Part shown: positions 4,240 to 62,741 of the stretch, piece after piece | How the letters are laid out: every line of letters starts with the position of its first letter | How positions within the stretch are numbered: the first letter of the stretch is position 1 | Origin: Candidatus Gastranaerophilales bacterium | Lineage (GTDB): Bacteria > Cyanobacteriota > Vampirovibrionia > Gastranaerophilales > Gastranaerophilaceae | Direction: 5' to 3' | Assembly: GCA_944324305.1 (NCBI GenBank) | Contig: CALUVV010000003.1 | Coordinates: forward strand, 62,001 to 126,000 | Length of the DNA: 64,000 nucleotides | Notes under the pieces: generated by a model | Seen by the model: the letters and a program-made list of their open reading frames with translations, nothing else | Database searches by the model: none | What the model was told of the DNA's origin: nothing | Program-made: the position numbers and the translations under genes

Positions 4240-5006
4240 ATGAAAAACGTATTTGATTTCGAAATTCGGGGGGGGGGCGCACTTTAGGCTCAGCTCCTGC
4301 GTTTACGCTTGCTGAAGTTTTGGTTACTTTAGGTATTATTGGCGTGGTATCAGCAATGACAGTACCGTCTTTGATGCAGAACCATCAAAGAAAGACTTAT
4401 GTAACACAGTTACATAAAGTTTATAATGAAGTTCAACAGGCATCTTTGCAGTGTATGACGGATAAGAATGCAATAAATTTAAGAGAAGCCGGTTTAACAA
4501 GCCGTTCTGCCATGTTGGAATTTTTGAATAAATATTTTAAAGTAGTGCAGCAATGTGAAGAAGGAGACGTCAGAACCCCTTGTTTTGCTTCTTCGTATAA
4601 ATCTATTGATGGAACAGATATTGGTGATGTGGGTAGTTGGGGTTCTGCTGCTTGTATTACCTTGGCTAGCGGAGCAGCCATAATGATTGATCATCCTTCA
4701 CTCTACTCATCTACAGTTGGTAACGTGAAATCGTATTGGGGAAATATGCTAATAGATATAAATGGTTCTAAAGGACCAAATATTGCAGGACGTGATTTAT
4801 TTCAGGTTGTTTTTTATGATGACGGCTCTATTGATATTGAAGGAGTAACTCCGGCTTGTAGAAGTCAGGGAATTTGCAATGGCAGCTCTCCGAAGGATAT
4901 TCGAAATAATTTGTATAACTCCAATTGTAAACAAACTACCGCTTCTGCCGGTGCTATAGGCTGTTTTGGCAAAATTCTAAATGATAACTGGGAAATGACA
5001 TATTAA
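4240..5006 (+). CDS. Type IV pilin-like protein, out of frame at a G10 tract (putatively phase-variable)
   Basis: SD AAAGGAG and ATG 4240 open a 15-codon ORF (MKNVFDFEIRGGGAL, stop 4285-4287). The pilin body is in another frame and joins the ATG frame only if the G-run at 4268-4277 is 8 or 11 long; with 11 the product is 255 residues. The body has a class III-type signal, SAPA then FTLAEVLVTLG, with the cleavage/methylation Phe and the Glu at +5. A hydrophobic helix follows, then the shared stretch PSLMQNHQRKTYVTQLHK. The middle is variable and Cys-containing, and the end is conserved (CFGKILNDNWEM). A TTG at 4320 lies inside the hydrophobic helix and would lose the processing site, so I do not take it as the start. 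Role in pili or a pseudopilus is inferred. Confidence 0.75.
4268..4277 (+). repeat. C-G10-C tract, copy 1
   Basis: Ten G flanked by C on both sides, starting 28 nt after the A of ATG 4240. The following bases CGCACTTTAGGCT carry a weak form of the downstream YTAAAGCT block. As read, it forces a stop at codon 16. Confidence 0.95.
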
Positions 5007-5097: not shown

Positions 5098-5819
5098 ATG
5101 AAAAAAGCATTGAATTCCGGAATTCGGGGGGGGGGCGTACTCTAAGCTCGGCTCCTGCGTTTACACTTGCTGAGGTTCTTATAACTTTAGGGATTATAGG
5201 GATTGTTGCAGCCTTAATTATGCCCGGAGTTATAGGTAATTATAAAAAACAACAGTCATTGCAGCAATTAAAAAAAGCTTATTCCGTTTTATCTCAGGCT
5301 TTCAATCATGCTGTTTCAGAATACGGCGACTCGACGGAATGGGATACGGTTACTCCCGATATTGCATTTTCTTATTTTGACACTTATTGGAAACCATATT
5401 TACAGGCACCTGTAAGATGTTACTATTATGATGAATGCGGTTATGACAGATTAACTCCGTTTTTTAAATCAAACAGGCGCATGGATGATTATCAGATTAA
5501 TCCGAATGCAGGCACGGCAAACTCCCGCGTAATGCTGCATTTAAATGACGGAACATTTGTAATGATTATTACGAGTTCAGGATATGGTCAGGATGACAGA
5601 CGAATTCTGGTAGATTTAAACGGCTCTAAATTCCCAAACCGTTTCGGTAATGATGTTTTCTTTTTTCTTAGGGTAAGCGGTAAAGGTATTGTACCTTACG
5701 GATATGATAAATCTACAGACGTCATAAACAAAGATTGCTCAAAGACGGGAAACGGTTATATGTGTGCGGCAAGATTAATGCAGGCGGGCTGGAATATGGA
5801 TTTGGACTATCCGTTTTAA
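5098..5819 (+). CDS. Type IV pilin-like protein, out of frame at a G10 tract (putatively phase-variable)
   Basis: SD GAAAGGAG, then ATG 5098. As read, the ATG frame ends after 15 codons (MKKALNSGIRGGGVL, stop 5143-5145). With 8 or 11 G it runs into the pilin body; with 11 the product is 240 residues. The body starts RTLSSAPA then FTLAEVLITLGIIGIVAAL, the type IV prepilin signal with Glu+5. A basic stretch (NYKKQQSLQQLKKAYSVLSQAF) and a Cys-containing globular part follow. The motif LVDLNGSKFPNRFGNDVF corresponds to the IDxNGxKxPNxxGxD block seen in the other pilin-like proteins here. The C-terminus differs from the 255-residue group, so this is a separate subfamily. Function as a minor pilin or pseudopilin is inferred. 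Confidence 0.75.
5126..5135 (+). repeat. C-G10-C tract, copy 2
   Basis: Ten G flanked by C, starting 28 nt after the A of ATG 5098. Followed by CGTACTCTAAGCT, which contains the downstream block. Confidence 0.95.
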
Positions 5820-12831: not shown

Positions 12832-13517
12832 TTACAGGCGTCTGGGATAATCTTTAGGAAATTCCCATTGATTTTCCTGTAGAAGCATAGTACATGATTG
12901 GCCGCTGCTTTTGCAATTGTTACGTATTTCTTCCCGTGTAGGATATGGAGTTCCTGTTGTTACACAGTAATACGGTCTTACTTGGTTACTGTCAACATTA
13001 CAGGTCCCGCTTTTCCTGCATAAAATAAACGCAAAAATATCTCTGCCAAGCTCATTAGGTTTTTTTTCTCCGTTAATGTCATAATAAATATCATAGCAAA
13101 CACCTATTTTAATACTCATTTGAGAGCCGTCAACAAACCTCAGTGTTGCCATATTCAGGCCGAGAAGCTCGCGTTTTTCTATTTCAAAACTTTTTATATA
13201 AGGTTTGATGTACGTATTTAAAAATTCAAATGCAGCATCTGAATTATTCATTTCACCAATTGTCCAATCTTCTCTCATTCCAAAATCATTTTCAGCACTA
13301 ATAAGAGCTTGATTAATTACTGAAACAAACTTTTTTATTCTGGCACTGGCTTCTTGTTTTTTTGTATTTGCAACAAGAGCGGGCATAGTTAAAGATGCTA
13401 CAACTCCAATAACTCCTAAGGTAATAAGAACTTCAGCGAGAGTAAACCCCTTAAATCCCTTGCGTTTAGCTATTTTTTCGGGGGGGGGGCAATTTCTAAA
13501 GCTTTTATATCAATCAT
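12832..13517 (-). CDS. Type IV pilin-like protein, out of frame at a C10 (G10 on +) tract
   Basis: SD AAGGAGG and ATG 13517 open a 15-codon ORF (MIDIKALEIAPPPKK, stop 13470-13472). The pilin body needs 8 or 11 C to be in frame; with 11 the product is 228 residues. The body has KGFKG then FTLAEVLITLG, a canonical G/F prepilin peptidase site with Glu+5, then a helix and a Cys-containing domain. The block YDINGEKKPNELGRDIF is shared with the other pilin-like proteins. It lies convergent to the tandem membrane-protein genes and just downstream of the atp operon, but has its own promoter. Pilus or secretion role inferred. Confidence 0.75.
13480..13489 (+). repeat. C-G10-C tract, copy 3
   Basis: Ten G on the + strand, read as ten C in the minus-strand gene, starting 28 nt after the A of its ATG (13517). 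Followed on + by CAATTTCTAAAGCT. Confidence 0.95.
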
Positions 13518-28504: not shown

Positions 28505-29658
28505 AGGGAAAAAAGTAAAAGGAAACAAAAATAAAAATTTTTTATAACTTAGCCGAATGTTTTGAAAGTGGATTCCGTGTTCTTTTCAATAACTTTTTGA
28601 ACCGCATCCATTTCAGTAGAAATTGCATCTTGTTCGGTATCCAGTTGTTTTAATCTTAATTCTAAGTTTTTATCCTGTGCTTGAGTAATTTCAATTTTGG
28701 CATTAATTTCTTGAATAGATTGATCATATTGATACTTATCGTATTCATACTGGTTCATAGCATCGTCATAAGCAGCCTGATCGGTAACAGTATTAGTTGT
28801 GACAGCATAAGTAACTTCATCGGCTTTTCCGGGGTTAAGTGTAATGTTAATAATTCTTCCTGTCGCATCCTGTTCAAGTCTGGCTGTAACGCCTTTCACT
28901 TCTTCTGTTTTTTGAGAAGAACCGACAGTGTACGCCGGGATATTGCTTTGAGAAGAACCTGTATCTGAATAAATAGCAGAATCCAAAACATCTTTTTTGT
29001 AGAAGTACGGACTCCAGGTCCCTGTAGTAGTGTTTTGAACATATCTAACCATCCAGTCACCATTACCGTACTGGTTATTTAACATTTGTATATAGTTGTT
29101 TTCTTCTTTTAATAAATTCTTTAATTGGTCATCCGAAAGAGTTTTTAAGTATTCGTCATTTCCTCTTAATGTATTTAATTCTTCTTCTGTCATCGCATCA
29201 ATATCATCATCATCTCTTGTAGTCATTTGTCTGAGTTCTTTTGCCCCAACGTTGTAAGTGTAGTTTCCTTCTTGTCCTTTTCTGGTAACAATGGAAGAAC
29301 CTGCCGCAACAACCGCAAAATCATCAGTCCAGGAAGAATTGTAGCTGATTAAATAAGTACCGTCCGGTTGAGCAATCATAGAAGAGATCGAATTGCTCAA
29401 AGAACCGTCTTCGAAAGTGTAAACAGTTTTCGTGTAATCTGAAACAGAAGGCGGAACCGGCACAGACATCCCTAACAAACTGTTATAGTAGTTAGCAGAT
29501 TGGTTAGACAAAGTTGTTCTTTGCTGGTTAATCTGTTGTCCTTCATATTCAACATTTGTCTTTCTGGCTGTCAGTCCTAAGAACCGAGCCTGAGATGCTG
29601 CCATACCCATGACGTGTTCCCTTTCAATTTGTTTCCTTATATCTATTTATACGGTCGG
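28505..29658. repeat. 1,154-bp duplicated block, copy 1
   Basis: Identical by eye to 46587-47740 in the same orientation. It covers one complete gene with its 5' leader and 3' leader up to, but not including, the terminator. Identity ends inside the G10 tract at 29657-29666: both copies share CGGTCGG, then copy 1 continues with G and copy 2 with T. Confidence 0.9.
28549..29610 (-). CDS. Conserved hypothetical protein, duplicated (copy 1)
   Basis: 353 residues, identical in sequence to the product at 46631-47692. The N-terminus GMAASQARFLGLTARKTN..EGQQINQQRTTLSNQSANYYNSLL is predicted helical and recalls the N-termini of secreted filament-type proteins. The middle is Thr/Tyr-rich with an acidic patch (DDDDIDAMTEEEL), and the C-terminal 70 residues look like a coiled coil. 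No signal peptide, no Cys, no membrane helix. I do not know its function. AAAGGG lies upstream of the ATG. A C10 tract sits upstream of the putative -10 of this copy only. Confidence 0.75.
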   Translation of the reverse strand: MGMAASQARFLGLTARKTNVEYEGQQINQQRTTLSNQSANYYNSLLGMSVPVPPSVSDYTKTVYTFEDGSLSNSISSMIAQPDGTYLISYNSSWTDDFAVVAAGSSIVTRKGQEGNYTYNVGAKELRQMTTRDDDDIDAMTEEELNTLRGNDEYLKTLSDDQLKNLLKEENNYIQMLNNQYGNGDWMVRYVQNTTTGTWSPYFYKKDVLDSAIYSDTGSSQSNIPAYTVGSSQKTEEVKGVTARLEQDATGRIINITLNPGKADEVTYAVTTNTVTDQAAYDDAMNQYEYDKYQYDQSIQEINAKIEITQAQDKNLELRLKQLDTEQDAISTEMDAVQKVIEKNTESTFKTFG

Positions 29659-29666
29659 GGGGGGGG
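29657..29666 (+). repeat. C-G10-C tract, copy 4 (upstream of a duplicated gene)
   Basis: Ten G on +, C10 relative to the downstream minus-strand gene, 46 nt before its ATG and five bases upstream of a TATAAA (29651-29646) that could be its -10. Followed on + by CAAAACTTTAAGCT. No ORF start precedes it, so any effect here would be on transcription. Confidence 0.9.
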
Positions 29667-32848: not shown

Positions 32849-34618
32849 CTAAACAATATTCACTGCTTCTTCGTACATTTTTATCGGAAGCACAAGCCCG
32901 AAAGTTGCCCCTTTTCCTATTTCTGATTGTACAAATACTTTACCGCCATGATATTTTTCTATTGTCTGCTTAACCAAATGCAGCCCCAGCCCTGTCCCTT
33001 TTATTGTGTGAATATTGTTTTCAACTCTGTAAAATCTGTCAAAAATCTTTTTCTGGTGTTCGGGGGCAATGCCGCATCCCTGGTCGGAAACAGTGATTAG
33101 AGTATTATCTCCGTCTTTTTTCAGTTCGACTTTAATTTTTCCGTTATCGGGAGAATACTTTATTGCATTTGATAAAAGGTTGGTTAAAGCTCTTTCTATA
33201 CCGGCGTAATTAAACATAAATTCAGGAATATCCGCTTCTTTATTTACCGATATTGTAAGATTATGTTCTTTTGTCAATGCCTGAACCTGATTTACACAGG
33301 TATCTACAACTTCATAAATGCTGTTAAGCGATTTTTCCATTTGTGCATTTGCTTCCATTCTTGAAAAATCCAGAATGTCATTAACCATTCCGTTAAGCCT
33401 TATAATTTCCTGATTAATAGTGCCGATAAATTCTTTTTGTGTTTCATAGTCAAATTCACTGCCGTAATTATAGAGTGTATCAATATAACTTCTCAACACT
33501 GTTACGGGTGTTCTCAGTTCATGAGAAACATTTGAAATAAATGTTGAACGCATCGCATCCATTTCGGCTTCTTTTGTCATATCGATAAGTACTAATATGT
33601 AGCCGACATAATCTTTATTTCTTGTTGTGAACATTGGTGAGATTATTGATTTTATAACCCGCTTATCAACTTGAATATTGAATTCGAGAGGCTTATTTTC
33701 CATAACTTCAATCGGAGTATCTTTAAATTCTTCTATTTTGTCTTTAAAGCAATAATTTCCTTCCGTATCAACATATTGTTGTATTTTTGTATTAAGCATC
33801 TGGTTTTCATCAAGCTCCAGAAGCTTATGCGCATGGTTATTAACAAGTACTACATTATCATTGTTATCACATACAACAACACCGTTGGCAATACTCATTA
33901 AAACTGCTTCAAGTTTATTTTTTTCGAGTGTAAGCTGTTCAATATTTTGTTCTTCATACAGGTGGAGCCTGTTAGACATGTTGTTAAATGCGTTAAAAAG
34001 TTCTTTAACTTCCGAACTTACATCTTTATCACGAATTGTGTAGCCGAATTCTCCTGTCGAAATTTTTTGAACACCTTTTTGCAGAATTCTTAATTCTCTT
34101 GTTATGAGATAAGTATTTATAAGTATTACAAATGCAAATACGACCCATGCAACCGTGAAAACAAAAAGCAGCGACGCTCTTGTTGTTGAAGAAATTTGAT
34201 TTATAATGTTACCCGATAGTCCGACCGTAACCGAACCGGCACCAGCTCCGTTTTCGTCAATCATGGGCGAGCTTACTATTATATTCGAAGTTTTGGGTTT
34301 AATTGCAGAACCGCCGCTTGATTTATAAATTAATTTTCCGTTTGCGTCTCGAAACTCAATAAAAACAATATCGCTATGCGATTCGACAATAGTATCGGCA
34401 TGAGATTTCAGTGTTTCGTAAGAAGTTCCCGCAAGCTCAGCACATTCTATGGCAAGAGCCTTTGAAACTATCTGCCCGAAATTTTGATACCCTTCATTTA
34501 AGTTTTTTTGTATATTAAAAATTGCAAAAACAGCAATTGCTACAATTAGAACGGTACTTAATAAAAGCCCTGATATAATCAGCCTGTTTTGCGTTGTTAG
34601 GCTCACCTGTTTACTCAT
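32849..34618 (-). CDS. Membrane sensor histidine kinase (HAMP-PAS-HisKA-HATPase)
   Basis: 589 residues from ATG 34618. Order: membrane helix 1 (about 14-38), an extracytoplasmic sensor region, membrane helix 2 (about 146-169, FVFTVAWVVFAFVILINTYLI), HAMP, a PAS domain, HisKA with the phospho-acceptor His near 366 in SNVSHELRTPV, and a HATPase domain with NLLSNAIKYSP, DQGCGIAPEH and GTGLGLHLV. No response regulator is adjacent. I reject the longer ORF start at 34801, because a near-perfect promoter lies seven bases upstream of ATG 34618, which predicts a leaderless mRNA. Confidence 0.9.
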   Translation of the reverse strand: MSKQVSLTTQNRLIISGLLLSTVLIVAIAVFAIFNIQKNLNEGYQNFGQIVSKALAIECAELAGTSYETLKSHADTIVESHSDIVFIEFRDANGKLIYKSSGGSAIKPKTSNIIVSSPMIDENGAGAGSVTVGLSGNIINQISSTTRASLLFVFTVAWVVFAFVILINTYLITRELRILQKGVQKISTGEFGYTIRDKDVSSEVKELFNAFNNMSNRLHLYEEQNIEQLTLEKNKLEAVLMSIANGVVVCDNNDNVVLVNNHAHKLLELDENQMLNTKIQQYVDTEGNYCFKDKIEEFKDTPIEVMENKPLEFNIQVDKRVIKSIISPMFTTRNKDYVGYILVLIDMTKEAEMDAMRSTFISNVSHELRTPVTVLRSYIDTLYNYGSEFDYETQKEFIGTINQEIIRLNGMVNDILDFSRMEANAQMEKSLNSIYEVVDTCVNQVQALTKEHNLTISVNKEADIPEFMFNYAGIERALTNLLSNAIKYSPDNGKIKVELKKDGDNTLITVSDQGCGIAPEHQKKIFDRFYRVENNIHTIKGTGLGLHLVKQTIEKYHGGKVFVQSEIGKGATFGLVLPIKMYEEAVNIV

Positions 34619-34625
34619 ACTGAAA

Positions 34626-34654
34626 ATTATACCACTTTTAAAATTTGCAGGCAA
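34626..34654 (-). promoter_or_regulatory. Promoter of the sensor kinase, predicting leaderless mRNA
   Basis: On the minus strand: TTGCCT (34654-34649), 17-bp spacer, TATAAT (34631-34626), seven bases before the ATG. No room for a Shine-Dalgarno. Confidence 0.75.
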
Positions 34655-34663
34655 GGTTTTTAA

Positions 34664-34691
34664 GTGACAATAAAAAATTATGATGTATAAT
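34664..34691 (+). promoter_or_regulatory. Promoter of the phase-variable glycosyltransferase
   Basis: GTGACA (34664-34669), 16-bp spacer, TATAAT (34686-34691). Back to back with the divergent kinase promoter. Confidence 0.65.
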
Positions 34692-34716
34692 AATTTTAAA
34701 AATAGGAGATAAAACA

Positions 34717-35825
34717 ATGTTAAATTCATTAAATAATTCTGTCGGGGGGGGGGCGCTCTCAGCTTAAATAAGGCTTTTACGCCTGATAATAAGCAAGACA
34801 TTTTATCTCCGAAATATTATGTTATAAATATTCCTTTCCATACTTCAGGATTATTTTGTATATGTGTTTATGTTGTATTGCATTCTGTATATGCAATTAA
34901 GCAGGGGTATATTCCGATTGTTGATTTAAAGCATAATAATACCCAATATTTTAAAGACGGCCGTATTTATAAAGACAATGTCTGGGAGTATTTTTTTGAA
35001 CAGCCTTGCGGGGTTTCACTTTCTGCATTAAAAACATCTGAAAATATTACGGTGTCGCGCGATAAAAAAGATTTTGACGATATTTTCAATGCCCTTCGCG
35101 ATATAAAAAAATTCAGAACTTTATATAAAGATTATTTAGATATAATAAAATTAAATCCGGAAACAAAGAAATATGCAGAAGATAATTACAGAAAAATAGT
35201 AGGTGATGAAAAGGAAGTTTTAGGAATTGTATGCCGCGGATCTGATTATGTAAAGCTAAAACTCTACGGGCATAATATTCAGCCTGACCCGAAAGATGTT
35301 TTAAAGAAGGCTGAGGAATTATTTAAGAAATTTAATTATAAAAAGATTTGGCTTGCAACCGAAGATGCAAATATTTATAAAATGTTTAAGGATAAATTTG
35401 GAGATATCTTGTTAGAAAATAAGCAATATATGTTTTCTGATACTGACGATAAGTTTATAGCGGATATTAAAGTTGCACGCCCGAACCACGCATATACCCT
35501 TGCCATGGAATATCTTGCTTCAATATATATAATATCTAAATGCAAATATATAATCGGCGGAGTTGTAACCGCTACCTTAGGAGCCTGGTTTTTATCGGAA
35601 GGCTTTAAAGACCAGCATTATGTATACTTATGGGATTTAGGGCGATACGGTATTACAGAACGCGTAGCCTGCAAAAATATTTTTGAAAAAATGCTCTCTG
35701 TAAGAAATGAATATTTCGAAGATAAAAAATATAAAGTTATTACAATTCTTGGCAAAGATTTTAAATCTCCAATTCGTAAGAGAGTAAAAAATTATATAAA
35801 AAGTGCATACACTAATCTTCCGTAA
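34717..35825 (+). CDS. Capsule/surface-glycan glycosyltransferase-like protein, out of frame at a G10 tract
   Basis: SD AGGAGA and ATG 34717 open a 16-codon ORF (MLNSLNNSVGGGALSA, stop 34765-34767). With 8 or 11 G it joins the long frame, which is open from the tract to 35825; with 11 the product is 369 residues. The joined frame reads ALSLNKAFTPDNKQDILSPKYYVINIPF, so protein homology probably starts well before the internal TTG at 34878. The core has LGIVCRGSDYVKLKLYGHNIQP and KKIWLATEDANIYKMFKDKFGD, resembling gut-bacterial capsular biosynthesis proteins with a fucosyltransferase-like fold (from memory). It would modify surface polysaccharide; substrate unknown. Its 3' end overlaps ybaK by 14 bp. 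Confidence 0.7.
34744..34753 (+). repeat. C-G10-C tract, copy 5 (glycosyltransferase gate)
   Basis: Ten G flanked by C, starting 27 nt after the A of ATG 34717. Followed by CGCTCTCAGCT. As read, the ATG frame ends 12 bases after the tract. Confidence 0.95.
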
Positions 35826-38409: not shown

Positions 38410-39777
38410 CTATTTATCCTCATTATATTTCAGAAGCGTTCCTTTAAATGATTTTTTATTAGTTAATTTTGCATGCTTTATGTTTGTTATAAGCTCTTTT
38501 ACTTCATCGCTGTTATAAAGTTCTTTTGCTTCGCGTGCAAATTCTAAGGCAGTATTATAATCGCCTTTATTCATATTCATAACGGCAAGGTTGTAAGATA
38601 CCATATATTTTTCATTATCTGATTTGGCAAGTTCATAAGCTTTTTGCATAGCTTTTAGTGCCTCTTTGTTTTTATTAAGTTCGGCGTATGCAATCCCCAT
38701 GTCAATGTAGCCGCCTGCAATATCAGGTGCGTTTTTTATATAATTCTGCGCTTCTTTTAATTTTCTGGTAGATATTTCTGCTGACGTTCCGAGAATTATA
38801 GGTGCATAAATTAATCCTTTTTTATTTAATTCATTTAAAGGCGTATTTGTAATTGTGGGTAAAAGCTTATAGAGTAATCTTATTGTGTTTATATCTTTAG
38901 AGGAAAGATACTGGAAAGAGCTTCTGTAAGGCGCATAAAAGCTGTTGTCGTCGTCAGCAGTCATGTACATTAAATCTTCGGTACTGTAACTGTGCCCCAT
39001 TATGCCGAGAGCGTGTCCGATTTCGTGCAGTATTGTGTTATAAAGTTCTTTATCTGAAAAGTAATTTCCGAAAGGATCATTTGTGTATAAAACAATAGTC
39101 ATATCATAAAGTGTCGGGCCCTTATAATTAGGTGTTGTAAATCCCACAACATATCTGCAGGTTTGTCCGCTGCACATATCTTCCGGGGGGGGGGCGATCC
39201 TCACCAGAATATCTGCGGTTTCTATGGAATTAGTCATTTTAAACGTTATAAAACCTGTTGCAGCCTGCCATTGGCTGAATGCTCTTATAATTTCCGTTTT
39301 GTAATAAGACGGAAGGTTTTTATTATCACTTGCATCGATAATTGCAACTTTTAAGGGGAATTTATTCTTATCCCATCGTATAATTCCTTTATCAAGAGGA
39401 ACCTGTTCTATATAATTATCACCGATATATGAGATTATATTATTTCTGAATTCAGTAATTCTTCTTTCGGCTATTTGTTGGGCACTGTCTTGCTGCGAAC
39501 CGGATGCAATTTCAAAAAGTTCTTTTTGCACGGTAGTGGTAAGCGACAGATGCATTAATGTTTTTACGTAATAATATCTGTAATCTTTGTTATGCTGATT
39601 AAAAAAATAGGCATTTTTTAAATTTTGGCGCGCTTTTACATAATCGTGCTTCTTGTAATAATTATGCCCCTGCCAATAGTAATATGAAGGCATAAGTTTA
39701 AATACAATACCGAAAACTATTGCAAATGAACAAATAAGTATAGTTAATATTCTGTCGCTATTGTTTTCCTGAGCCAT
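38410..39777 (-). CDS. Matrixin-like zinc metalloprotease with TPR regions
   Basis: A 455-residue protein. An N-terminal membrane anchor (ILTILICSFAIVFGIVFKLM) is followed by a TPR-like region. The protease domain has the zinc motif HEIGHALGIMGHS near residue 249 and a Met-turn (EDLMYM). The third His is one position later than in classical metzincins, as I recall for bacterial and cyanobacterial M10-like proteins. TPR units follow at 340-430. Likely acts outside the membrane. A C10 tract at residues 195-198 (RIAPPPEDM) is in frame here at length 10. The gene overlaps scpB by 20 bp. Confidence 0.8.
   Translation of the reverse strand: MAQENNSDRILTILICSFAIVFGIVFKLMPSYYYWQGHNYYKKHDYVKARQNLKNAYFFNQHNKDYRYYYVKTLMHLSLTTTVQKELFEIASGSQQDSAQQIAERRITEFRNNIISYIGDNYIEQVPLDKGIIRWDKNKFPLKVAIIDASDNKNLPSYYKTEIIRAFSQWQAATGFITFKMTNSIETADILVRIAPPPEDMCSGQTCRYVVGFTTPNYKGPTLYDMTIVLYTNDPFGNYFSDKELYNTILHEIGHALGIMGHSYSTEDLMYMTADDDNSFYAPYRSSFQYLSSKDINTIRLLYKLLPTITNTPLNELNKKGLIYAPIILGTSAEISTRKLKEAQNYIKNAPDIAGGYIDMGIAYAELNKNKEALKAMQKAYELAKSDNEKYMVSYNLAVMNMNKGDYNTALEFAREAKELYNSDEVKELITNIKHAKLTNKKSFKGTLLKYNEDK
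39185..39194 (+). repeat. C-G10-C tract, copy 6 (inside the matrixin-like gene)
   Basis: Ten G on +, encoding Pro-Pro-Pro in the minus-strand protease and in frame at length 10. It is the only copy inside a gene body and the only one without the downstream AAAGCT-like block. Confidence 0.9.
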
Positions 39778-56170: not shown

Positions 56171-56219
56171 ATGAAAAAATGTTTTAGTCGCCGCAGTTGC
56201 GGGGGGGGGGCGTTTTAAA
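56171..56219 (+). CDS. 15-codon mini-ORF with G10 tract, detached from its pilin-like gene
   Basis: SD AGAAAGGAG, ATG 56171, MKKCFSRRSCGGGAF and stop (the codons occupy 56171-56218). It has the same build as the leaders of the pilin-like genes. At 8 or 11 G the frame would run without a stop into the pilin-like gene at 56311. But here a separate promoter and ribosome site lie between, so the pilin does not depend on the tract. It may be an orphan copy of the cassette or a real small peptide. Confidence 0.5.
56201..56210 (+). repeat. C-G10-C tract, copy 7
   Basis: Ten G flanked by C, starting 30 nt after the A of ATG 56171. Followed by CGTTTTAAAGCTT. Confidence 0.95.
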
Positions 56220-56243
56220 GCTTCTTACCTTGTTTTTAAAGGG

Positions 56244-56271
56244 TTGTAAAAATAATGAAATCTGTTATAAT
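56244..56271 (+). promoter_or_regulatory. Internal promoter of the pilin-like gene at 56311
   Basis: TTGTAA (56244-56249), 16-bp spacer, TATAAT (56266-56271), about 40 bp upstream of the ATG. Confidence 0.7.
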
Positions 56272-56310
56272 AGTGATGTAATACATTACAAATATAACGG
56301 AGTTTCAAAA

Positions 56311-56937
56311 ATGCAAAGAGCGTTTACATTAGCGGAAGTTTTGGTTACACTTGGGATTATCGGGGTTGTTGCGGCTCTTACTATGCCTTCTCTGGTCGGT
56401 AATTATCAGAAAAAAGTTAATATTGCAGGATTAAAAAAAGCTCATTCCGTTCTTAGTCAAGCCTGCATGAATATAGTCAGGGAAAGAGGTATTGATACAT
56501 TCGCAATGTGTTCTGTTAATGATTCCCAATGTTTGGGAGATATGTTCAAGTCGGAATTAAAATTATTATCGGGAACGCTATGGACGCCGAACAGCGGCAT
56601 TGCCGAAGGGTGCTGGGAAGATAAAGAGATTACAAATCCTCAGGAAGTTCATTATTGTACTGTTACTGCTGACGGAATTGTTTATGATTTTGATATGGAA
56701 TGGCCCAGGACGGAAAATAAGGTTAACGGATATATACTTGTTGATATTAACGGTCTTAAAAAGCCGAATAAGTTCGGACGTGACAGATATGCATTCTCGA
56801 TTATTAACAATACAGACATAACTGTTTATAAATCCTCAGCTGTCGTTAATGATGATGTAATTCCGCCTTGTAACAACGGCAACGGTACGGTTGATGAAAA
56901 TCTGGGATGTGCATATAAATATTTATATACTGAGTAA
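56311..56937 (+). CDS. Type IV pilin-like protein (tract-independent)
   Basis: 208 residues starting MQRA then FTLAEVLVTLGIIGVVAALTMPSLVGNYQKK, a minimal prepilin leader with Glu+5. The ATG has CGGAG about nine bases upstream and its own promoter. The rest has paired Cys and the shared block LVDINGLKKPNKFGRD. It closely resembles the subfamily at 5098 and 13517, but it is in frame as read, which shows that a member of the family can work without the tract leader. Exact role in a pilus or pseudopilus unknown. Confidence 0.82.
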   Translation: MQRAFTLAEVLVTLGIIGVVAALTMPSLVGNYQKKVNIAGLKKAHSVLSQACMNIVRERGIDTFAMCSVNDSQCLGDMFKSELKLLSGTLWTPNSGIAEGCWEDKEITNPQEVHYCTVTADGIVYDFDMEWPRTENKVNGYILVDINGLKKPNKFGRDRYAFSIINNTDITVYKSSAVVNDDVIPPCNNGNGTVDENLGCAYKYLYTE

Positions 56938-56969: not shown

Positions 56970-57736
56970 TTAGTAGTTCATTTCCCAGTTGTCGTTCAGA
57001 ATTTTCCCGAAGCAGCCCAGTCCAAGTGCATTTGTTTGACAGTTTGAATTATAATATGTTTCTCTGATTTCTTTAAGCGAACCTCCCTCGCAGGCACCTT
57101 TAGTCTTACATCCCGGTGTTGCCCCCAGAACATCTATAGAGCCGTCATCATAAAACTCGACAAAAAACATATCTCTTCCTCCGATATTAGGTCCTTGAAG
57201 CCCGTTAATATCAATCAGCATATGGCCGTAATAAGATGTTACATTGTTAACGGTCTTTGAATAAGTACCAGGATTGTCAATTAAAATGGATGCTCCGCTT
57301 GAAAGAGTTACAGAAGAACTTGCGGACCAGTTCGCATTACTGGTTGAGGTTGCAGCCCCGTTCAAATTTCTGTAACTTTCAGCAAAACAAGGAGATTTTA
57401 TGTAGGTTTCACAATCATTAACTACTTTAAAATAGCCGTGTAAAAATTCTTTCATCTTAACTGCATTAGTCAGCCCTGCTTCTCTAAGATTTACCGCATT
57501 TTTATCGGTCATATAGCGTAAAGATGCCTGCTGGACTTCATTATATACTTTATGCAGCTGAGTAACGTATGTTTTTCTTTGATGGTTCTGCATCAAAGAC
57601 GGTACTGTCATAGCAGACACTACGCCTATAATCCCTAAAGTAACCAAAACCTCAGCTAAAGTAAATCCCTTAAAACCTTTGCCCCTAGCTACCCTTGCGG
57701 GGGGGGGGCAACTCTTAAAGCTTTCGTATCAATCAT
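56970..57736 (-). CDS. Type IV pilin-like protein, out of frame at a C10 (G10 on +) tract
   Basis: SD AAGGAGG and ATG 57736 open 15 codons (MIDTKALRVAPPPQG, stop 57689-57691). With 8 or 11 C the frame enters the pilin body; with 11 the product is 255 residues with leader ARVARGKGFKG then FTLAEVLVTLG. The first 50 residues of the body and the end (CFGKILNDNWEM) are nearly the same as in the genes at 4240 and 61023. The middle, with CETYIKSPCF and the Ser/Thr-rich NANWSASSSVTLSSGAS, differs. All three genes are exactly 767 bp long. Pilus role inferred. Confidence 0.75.
57699..57708 (+). repeat. C-G10-C tract, copy 8
   Basis: Ten G on + (C10 in the gene), starting 28 nt after the A of ATG 57736. 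Followed on + by CAACTCTTAAAGCTT. Confidence 0.95.
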
Positions 57737-60258: not shown

Positions 60259-61023
60259 AATAATTCATTTCCCAATTATTGTTCAAAAGTTTTCCGAAAC
60301 ATTGGTTATCTGTAAATGTTGCTGTAGCTTCACAAGCTTTACCTGCTGCGTTTCTGATTGCTTCAAGAGATTCTCCGTCACAAACCCCTTTAGTTCTGCA
60401 GGCAGGGCTTGCATTAACCGTGTCAAGAACTCCGTCATCCCAGTTTATCATTAAAAACGCATCACGTCCTAATATATTCGGTCCCTTGCTTCCGTTAATA
60501 TCAATAAATGATATTCCCCAGCCGGCAGAATACCCGCCGTACGAATAAGTTCTGTCGCTGACGGTATCGATACATATTTCAGCGCCGCTTGCTATTATTG
60601 CACACGCGCCGTTATTCCAATATAAGTTTGTATTATTGTTAATCGTTGTTCCGTTTATATTTTTATAATCTATACTTGTACAATGCTTATGCTCAGGGCA
60701 GGCCTGTACAACTTTAAAATGTCTGCTTATGAATTCATCAATTTTATTTGTATCGGTAAGTCCTGCTTCCCTTAAATTAATTGCGTTTTTCTCTGTCATT
60801 TCCTGCATAAATGCCTGCTGAATTTCATTGTATGTTTTATGCAGCTGGGTAACATAAGTTTTTCTTTGATGGTTTTGTATCAAAGACGGCACAGTCATAG
60901 CAGACACTACACCTATAATCCCTAAAGTAACCAAAACCTCAGCTAAAGTAAATCCCCTAAAACCTTTGCCCCGAGCTACCCTTGCGGGGGGGGGGCAATT
61001 CTTAAAGCTTTCGTATCAATCAT
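60257..61023 (-). CDS. Type IV pilin-like protein, out of frame at a C10 (G10 on +) tract
   Basis: SD AGGAGG and ATG 61023 open 15 codons (MIDTKALRIAPPPQG, stop 60976-60978). With 11 C the product is 255 residues, the same length as its paralogues at 4240 and 57736. The body begins GFRG then FTLAEVLVTLG and shares the following 50 residues (PSLIQNHQRKTYVTQLHK) and the end (CFGKLLNNNWEM). The middle is different (CPEHKHCTSIDYK, SYGGYSAGWG). The 5' leader and promoter are almost identical to those of the 57736 gene, a sign of recent duplication or gene conversion. Function inferred. Confidence 0.75.
60986..60995 (+). repeat. C-G10-C tract, copy 9
   Basis: Ten G on + (C10 in the gene), starting 28 nt after the A of ATG 61023. 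Followed on + by CAATTCTTAAAGCTT. Confidence 0.95.
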
Positions 61024-61139: not shown

Positions 61140-62741
61140 ATGAATAACGGTAAAATTGTAGTAGTTGATGATGAAAAAATGGTTACCTCAGCTTTTAAAA
61201 CATTGTTTAAAGTTGAGGGATATTCTGATATACATTTATTTAACAGCCCTAAAGATGCGGTTGATTTTTTAAGACAAAATACTCCCGATTTGATAATCTC
61301 GGATTTTATTATGCCTGAGATGAACGGTTTGCAGTTTCTAACGGAAGCCAAAAAACTTCATCCCGAAGTCAGTATGATACTTTTAACGGGATATGCCGAT
61401 AAAGAAAACGCCATTAAGGCAATTAATGAGATAGGTTTATACAAATATATCGAAAAACCATGGGATAATGATGATTTGATGATGAATATCCGAAACGGTA
61501 TTGAAAGAAGCCATCTTCTCGAAAATTTGAGAAATAAGATTAATGAGCTTGAACAAGCTAAATTAAAACTTCAGGAATATTCGACTAATTTGGAAAAAAT
61601 TGTTGCTGAGCGTACGGCTGATCTTTCTGAAGCAAATAAAAAATTATCCGGAATAATCAATTATTGTGCGGACGGTATAATAATTGTCGACGGCGAAGGA
61701 CATATCGAACAGGTTAACCCTGCCTGTGAGAACATGGCAGGTCTTTCTGATGCTGCTCTTTGTAAAAAGAAATTTCAGGAAATTGCGTATTCCAATGTTA
61801 AAGAATTTAATTCTTCAAAAAATAATAAATCAGGTGAAATTTTCGGGTTAGGCGAAGAAAATTCGGAAATTCTTCTGAGAGATTATTTTATCGTTAATTC
61901 ATTAAGCGGAATTCATACACCGGTAGAAATAAGCTTTGCAGCTATATCGGGAGACGAAAATAAATTTGATAAGTTTGTAGGTGTTATTAGAGATGTCAGC
62001 GTTCAAAAAGAAACGGAACGTCTGAGAGATGATTTTATAGCAACTCTTACCCATGATATGAGAACACCTTTGCTTGCCGCTATTCAAACTTTAAAATTTT
62101 TCCTCGAAGGAGCTATTGGAGAGCTTGACGAAAAGCAAAAAGTTCTTTTATCTACAATGCTTCAGAGTAACGAGGATTTGCTCGGCCTTGTTAATGCACT
62201 GCTTGAAGTATACAGATTTGAAAGCGGAAAGTTAACACTTTGCAAAACTGCTTTTCCTGTTAAAGATCTGGTTGAACAGTGTTATTCCGAATTGAAACCT
62301 CTTGCGGCTAAAAAAAATCTTAAGTTTGAAGTTATCTTTGAACTTCCGGACAACCTTCATATTACGGCTGACAGAGCTGAAATTAAACGTGTAATTACAA
62401 ATCTTTGCGGGAATGCTTTAAACTATACCAATAAAGGCGGGGAAATCAGCGTTCTTGCAAAGGCTCAAAACGGTGATTTTATATTTTCGGTAACAGACAA
62501 CGGAAACGGTATTCCGCAGGCTGATATTCCGAACTTATTTAAGAGATTTTCTCAAGGCACGGCGAGAAAACGTTCTACGGGAACAGGGCTCGGACTGTAT
62601 CTCTCCAGACAAATTATAGAAGCCCATAACGGCAAAATTTGGGTTGACAGTAAAGTTGATAAAGGCAGTGAATTTTCATTCCTGTTAACTGATGTGGTTA
62701 CGGATGCTAAAGTTAAAGAAAGACAGGTTTCTAATGGCTAA
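61140..62741 (+). CDS. Response-regulator/PAS/histidine-kinase fusion protein
   Basis: 533 residues, cytosolic. An N-terminal receiver domain (VVVDDEK, acceptor Asp in LIISDFIMPEMNG, LLTGYA, KPW) is followed by a coiled coil (about 125-165), a PAS domain (170-290), HisKA with His near 305 in ATLTHDMRTPLLAA, and HATPase (NLCGNALNY, TDNGNGIPQ, STGTGLGLYLSRQI). No membrane helix, so input probably comes through its own receiver or the PAS pocket. ATG 61140 chosen from the promoter distance; the TTG at 61065 would lie upstream of it. It overlaps the next gene by 8 bp and probably phosphorylates that product. Confidence 0.88.
   Translation: MNNGKIVVVDDEKMVTSAFKTLFKVEGYSDIHLFNSPKDAVDFLRQNTPDLIISDFIMPEMNGLQFLTEAKKLHPEVSMILLTGYADKENAIKAINEIGLYKYIEKPWDNDDLMMNIRNGIERSHLLENLRNKINELEQAKLKLQEYSTNLEKIVAERTADLSEANKKLSGIINYCADGIIIVDGEGHIEQVNPACENMAGLSDAALCKKKFQEIAYSNVKEFNSSKNNKSGEIFGLGEENSEILLRDYFIVNSLSGIHTPVEISFAAISGDENKFDKFVGVIRDVSVQKETERLRDDFIATLTHDMRTPLLAAIQTLKFFLEGAIGELDEKQKVLLSTMLQSNEDLLGLVNALLEVYRFESGKLTLCKTAFPVKDLVEQCYSELKPLAAKKNLKFEVIFELPDNLHITADRAEIKRVITNLCGNALNYTNKGGEISVLAKAQNGDFIFSVTDNGNGIPQADIPNLFKRFSQGTARKRSTGTGLGLYLSRQIIEAHNGKIWVDSKVDKGSEFSFLLTDVVTDAKVKERQVSNG

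Follow-up and report, generated by a model that had tools for sequence, protein, structure and literature searches.

Three described systems come closest to the locus treated here. In Campylobacter, poly-G tracts of about 9–10 bases lie inside open reading frames (ORFs) that are restored by changes in tract length, with surface genes, including sugar transferases, among those affected; 53% of its poly-G/C tracts have length 9 and 26% length 10 (PhasomeIt; PMC6321876). Neisseria meningitidis carries a very large repertoire driven by repeats, with 115 genes of confirmed variation at simple sequence repeat (SSR) contingency loci (PMC5084427). The FtsK-orienting polar sequences (KOPS) of E. coli and Vibrio (GGGNAGGG, 8 bp) are G-rich motifs held on one strand per replichore, with a polarity switch at the replichore junction (PMC2533119). 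The glycosyltransferase-like gene at 34717–35825 of a 64,000-nucleotide stretch of Candidatus Gastranaerophilales DNA (hereafter the window: positions 62001–126000 of contig C3 of genome G000, which has 2.2 Mb; window G+C 36%) shares features with all three. Its start contains a run of exactly ten Gs (G10) within a degenerate element, TC-G10-CRnnYTnnAGCtyC, and the gene belongs to a standardised system found across the genus, most likely an unusual form of phase variation.

The departures from the known systems are as marked as the likenesses. In contrast to Campylobacter, 169 of the 180 runs of at least 7 Gs in this genome (94%) are exactly G10, and 165 of these take the form C-G10-C; many are C-sense, and the tracts keep to one replication strand, conserved flanks and one residue class of length. 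Neisseria repeats are of many kinds and lengths, whereas a single standardised element is found here. Unlike KOPS, the element is about 25 bp long, tied to gene starts and frame-breaking. Among the papers searched, none on phase variation in the Gastranaerophilales was found.

The dependence of the glycosyltransferase frame on the run can be read by translation at varied tract lengths (n). From the Shine-Dalgarno (SD)-linked ATG at 34717 (MLNSLNNSVGG...), a joined product of 368 aa is obtained at n = 8 and one of 369 aa at n = 11; at n = 9, 10 or 12, translation ends after 16–18 codons. Since joining needs 8 or 11 Gs and the assembly has 10, the gene is one base out of register. The original prediction, that the frame is open from the tract to 35825 and becomes continuous with this ATG at 8 or 11 Gs, is confirmed, and the locus has the first feature expected of a poly-G contingency locus: a frame-setting homopolymer of at least 8 bases in the 5′ part of the coding sequence. 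Actual gating, by changes of tract length within cells, is inferred.

An internal TTG at 34878, residue 42 of the joined frame, was considered as a start and rejected: three relatives (L197, L198 and the gene at the syntenic locus of a close species, G004) align from about residues 16–22, and 34878 is therefore not the true start. Family similarity had been expected to begin before this TTG, and it does so; none of the three begins at or after it. L197, from a Ca. Gastranaerophilales metagenome-assembled genome, is tract-free and 67% identical to the joined protein over the alignment. Its frame is continuous from its own SD-linked ATG, which lies further upstream, through MSNLASSEYIGSIASNSL and into YYVINLPF. 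The L197 flank, TATC-GGGAGTATAG-CATCTAATAGCTT, is similar to TGTC-G10-CGCTCTCAGCTT of the window, with the run absent, and is possibly an element that decayed and was then locked on. In G004, the syntenic gene (L089:5025–6112) is 47% identical and has a tract at its start, there G11 where the frame needs n = 10, hence also out of frame: the locus has been kept while the gene has diverged or been replaced, and both copies are off.

Sequence searches of Pfam, NCBIfam and PDB with the window enzyme found nothing significant. Its relatives match NodZ (PF05830) below the cut-off (E 0.006–0.01; 15–16 bits, against a gathering score of 28.3), and L198 has a second, TOD1/MUCI70 glycosyltransferase-like domain. 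A low-confidence structure model, built from four input sequences (pLDDT 57, pTM 0.60), finds FUT8, NodZ, FUT1 and POFUT as its best PDB matches (E down to 1.6e-8), although identity to FUT8 is only about 15%. Because of the weak NodZ matches of the relatives and the matches of the model, the enzyme is named here as a putative NodZ/FUT8-fold sugar transferase, probably a fucosyl one. Its earlier description as “capsule-type” is unsupported: the predicted fold is similar to that of the NodZ/FUT8 fucosyltransferases, and nothing around the gene was shown to be a capsule locus.

Nearly all G10 runs of the genome lie within the one degenerate element, which is present in about 170 copies (roughly one per 12 kb), mostly before pilin genes. 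Overlapping G7 matches in the window number 36, where shuffled sequence would give 1.4 and none of 100 shuffles reached 36; the runs are therefore not a product of chance. A C precedes the run in 96 of the 100 sites listed, and the flank is found at pilin and non-pilin, coding and non-coding sites and in both coding senses; part of the non-pilin sample, from other genomes, was retrieved by requiring a C on both sides. The element occurs in most of the 33 genomes of the genus and was absent from all 11 genomes searched from other families of the order; a search of viral contigs with its long motif gave no match. It had been proposed that the element is not confined to pilin genes, and the sugar transferase and other non-pilin sites do carry the same flank. 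The original interpretation is thus partly right; this point is supported, but as written it omits the exact length of 10, the conserved flank, the single replication strand and the frame rule described next. The genes concerned (pilins and a sugar transferase-like enzyme) are of the surface-variation class typical of poly-G contingency loci.

Across the genus, 142 of 148 tract-started genes are joined to their start only at n = 2 mod 3, so that lengths of 8 and 11 are in frame; 100 of them stand at n = 10, which is off. The rule holds in G-sense (96/98) and C-sense (46/50) genes and for all three downstream frames, and 33 of 38 flank clusters agree with it (P about 1e-11 if each residue class had a probability of 1/3). 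Lengths do vary: over 20 genomes, C-Gn-C sites comprise 4 of G8, 53 of G9, 970 of G10 and 61 of G11; two adjacent near-identical copies in L087 have G10 and G11; orthologous sites differ as 9, 10 or 11; and the syntenic relative in G004 has G11. Differences between close copies and orthologues are a further mark of contingency loci. The reading frames behind the tracts stay long and open, and tract genes are therefore probably expressed at times.

The consistent shortfall of one base and the narrow length peak at 10 would also fit a fixed slippage rule, under which part of the product would be full length from unchanged DNA, either through slippage of RNA polymerase (+1 G) or through −1 frameshifting of the ribosome on G10 or C10. 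Such a non-genetic process is unlikely. The same rule applies to G10 and C10 mRNAs, although these would be expected to slip differently; for both coding senses the position of the flank motif is set by the G strand of the DNA and not by the direction of the gene, whereas a programmed frameshift or slippage signal would be placed with respect to the coding strand; the G004 relative, with n = 11 and a need for 10, breaks the rule; copies that lie in frame within genes would lose product; and both the replication polarity and the flank would be left unexplained. Because G-sense and C-sense genes follow one DNA-strand rule, a DNA-level process is preferred to an RNA-level one.

Mid-gene copies also bear on how far the length calls can be relied on. 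That almost every start-proximal tract is exactly one base short could suggest an assembly or sequencing artefact, with a true length of 11, but this is scarcely credible: the same assemblies report G8, G9, G11 and G13, and a length of exactly 10 is the only one that keeps a matrixin-like gene (38410–39777) and, in several species, a GT2 gene (PGGGQ) in frame across their mid-gene copies. A true G11 was rejected on the evidence of these in-frame sites, and because of them the tract length calls are considered trustworthy. The GT2 run is exactly G10 in G000 and three other species and interrupted in one; in five further species the site encodes GG with K, E or R, in mixed codons. Matrixin-like orthologues compared over the site are of the same length and have no run, except that of G004, in which G10 is present and is followed by an assembly gap. 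The orthologues of both genes show no length change, and the run arises in place. At a non-coding site upstream of a 353-aa gene (about 47.7 kb in the window, compared with L089:18116), the G10 element is present in G004 and there is none in G000, the two apparently being of equal length (10-for-10). Simple insertion of a mobile 29-bp element was rejected as a general rule on the evidence of these three sites.

In G000 all tracts lie on the G+T-rich strand of each replichore. Along contigs the orientation holds steady, and two further species show the same polarity, with two switches only in G007 (69 tracts) and in G036 (44 tracts), so few that the chance probabilities are about 1e-17 and 1e-10, respectively. 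The switch on contig C3 of G000 (123–163 kb) coincides with the minimum of cumulative A-T skew, and that on C1 of G007 with a shift of GC skew from negative to positive. In most bacteria the G+T-rich strand is the leading strand; the tract polarity itself is independent of that assignment. Near the C3 switch genes point outward and secY adjoins it, which would fit an origin there. Two other markers were tried and set aside: dnaA is not near any orientation switch, and a dif-like 28-mer (L112:13385–13412), conserved in four species and considered as a dif site for the C3 switch, lies inside an ORF (L112 12741–13937) and for that reason proves nothing as a terminus marker.

This strong one-strand polarity is what would be expected of KOPS or architecture imparting sequences (AIMS), and one possibility is that the element is primarily a chromosome-polarity or recombination motif (KOPS- or Chi-like), with its effect on reading frames secondary. 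The two flips per genome at skew switch points, the density of the element and the keeping of an exact, in-frame G10 in other coding genes by synonymous or conservative changes are in keeping with this. It is nonetheless improbable: such motifs are short and gene-neutral, whereas this one is about 25 bp with a degenerate flank, lies just before the pilin motif in 50 of 58 pilin genes sampled (0.46 Mb), and puts the start out of frame at n = 10 in almost every start-proximal gene. The skew inflection does coincide with the polarity junction, and the only dif-like site found is the one within an ORF.

We favor poly-G phase variation at the level of the DNA, in which G10 is the standard ground state and off, and G11 is on, and give it a probability of roughly 0.58. 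The glycosyltransferase gene would then be one of about 100–170 phase-variable genes of this genome that share the element just after the start codon. At G10 the SD-linked start would be one base out of register and the full protein would not be made; addition of one G, or deletion of two, as the DNA is replicated would join the frame and turn the gene on, and the reverse change would turn it off. The length change would most likely be replication-coupled, strand-specific and biased around 10, because the G strand keeps to one replication strand whichever way the gene points, and selection would have favored genes in which +1 gives the on state. Switching at the DNA level explains the low and equal frequencies of G9 and G11, the differing adjacent copies and a G004 relative that is off with the opposite requirement.

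Several observations weigh against this reading. Tract lengths are known from consensus assemblies; exact G10, at 89% over 20 genomes, forms a far sharper peak than Campylobacter poly-G/C shows; G9 and G11 are equally common, with no excess of “on” lengths; and neither the conserved flank nor the near-lack of genes needing n = 0 mod 3 is explained by plain slippage. The flank and the sharpness at 10 together suggest a recognised motif or a strong length bias. It is conceivable, if rather doubtful, that the genus has a dedicated system of its own, in which a protein or a process coupled to the replisome would recognise TC-G10-CRnnYTnnAGCtyC on a single replication strand and keep the run at 10. 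The +1 changes it made would switch on individual members of a repertoire of well over 100 pilins and surface genes, most of which would be off by default in each cell.

Another proposal is that the pilins are silent cassettes: G10 would silence donor copies and mark recombination sites, with expression from a few tract-free or in-frame loci. Several loci of G000 and G004 are orthologous on one side of the tract and of a different class on the other, and 8 of the 58 sampled pilins have an ordinary short leader without a tract. The idea is very improbable given that tract genes have their own SD and ATG and include the sugar transferase and others.

The window contains nine tracts, all G10 and all on the plus strand (Table 1).

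Table 1. Glycosyltransferase start region and other G10 elements of the window.
Feature	Position	Strand	Basis or comment
Promoter-like pair GTGACA-16-TATAAT	34664..34691	+	Sigma-70-like; 5′ of glycosyltransferase start; 11/12 consensus positions, consensus match only, and such matches no commoner than in shuffled sequence
Shine-Dalgarno AGGAG	34704..34708	+	Read from sequence
ATG and 5′ coding segment, 27 nt, MLNSLNNSV	34717..34743	+	Sequence; frame joining at varied n
G10 element TGTC-G10-CGCTCTCAGCTTA	34740..34766	+	Consensus TC-G10-CRnnYTnnAGCtyC
G10 homopolymer, exactly 10 G	34744..34753	+	Gene joined at n = 8 or 11, broken at 10
Body of NodZ/FUT8-fold glycosyltransferase-like protein	34755..35825	+	Open frame, tract to stop; begins ALSLNKAFTP
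Element, G-sense, leader of pilin 4240–5006	4268..4277	+	Needs n = 2 mod 3
Element, G-sense, pilin leader	5126..5135	+	Needs n = 2 mod 3
Element, C-sense, leader of minus-strand pilin ending 12832	13480..13489	+	Needs n = 2 mod 3
Element, non-coding, upstream of minus-strand gene 28549–29610	29657..29666	+	
Element inside matrixin-like gene 38410–39777 (minus)	39185..39194	+	In frame at n = 10 (APPPE)
Element upstream of pilin with own downstream SD and ATG	56201..56210	+	Needs n = 2 mod 3
Element, C-sense, minus-strand pilin leader	57699..57708	+	Needs n = 2 mod 3
Element, C-sense, minus-strand pilin leader	60986..60995	+	Needs n = 2 mod 3

On the minus strand, the ORF of a divergent histidine kinase (32849–34801) formally runs through the glycosyltransferase tract, in frame at n = 10 from an ATG at 34801. 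Near-relative DNA similarity stops at about 34655, which places the true start of the kinase probably close to 34618 and suggests that the run through the tract is coincidental.

A 5′ segment that recurs in the left flanks of L008, L031, L097, L098, L114 and others contains CACAA..TTGTG and CTACGcaCGTAG hairpins immediately before the tract, and the ATG there is 79–85 nt upstream. Another class of pilin leader (e.g., L090, L125) has a perfect CAAGCG-GCA-CGCTTG hairpin between tract and pilin motif. A subclass of tract units, represented by 56201–56340 in the window and by many relatives, has a promoter-like TTGTAA/TATAAT (read as ..C[KNQ]xx..CYN..) between the tract and the pilin and a second SD-ATG just before the pilin motif; such genes may have two alternative starts. 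In L106 and L092 of G004 the whole element is in tandem duplicate with a unit of about 27 bp (e.g., CTCTTGC-G10-CATTCTCAAG, twice). Contig ends and N-gaps are frequent at tracts across the genus (e.g., the start of G004:C52, G010:C1:6 and G002:C50:6), a pattern that could stem from mixed tract lengths or from repeated pilins in the populations sampled.

What has been found looks like an unusually large, standardised default-off switch system. If so, it would be one of the largest repeat-switched gene sets yet described, in gut bacteria of the cyanobacterial sister group, and uniform in length, flank, replication strand and off state. It would become possible to test the long-standing question of whether simple slippage accounts for homopolymer switching or whether strand and a dedicated factor shape it. 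Standard annotation would be calling about 100 surface genes per genome truncated, as with the start at 34878, and the pilus and glycan surface of these bacteria would be mixed from cell to cell.
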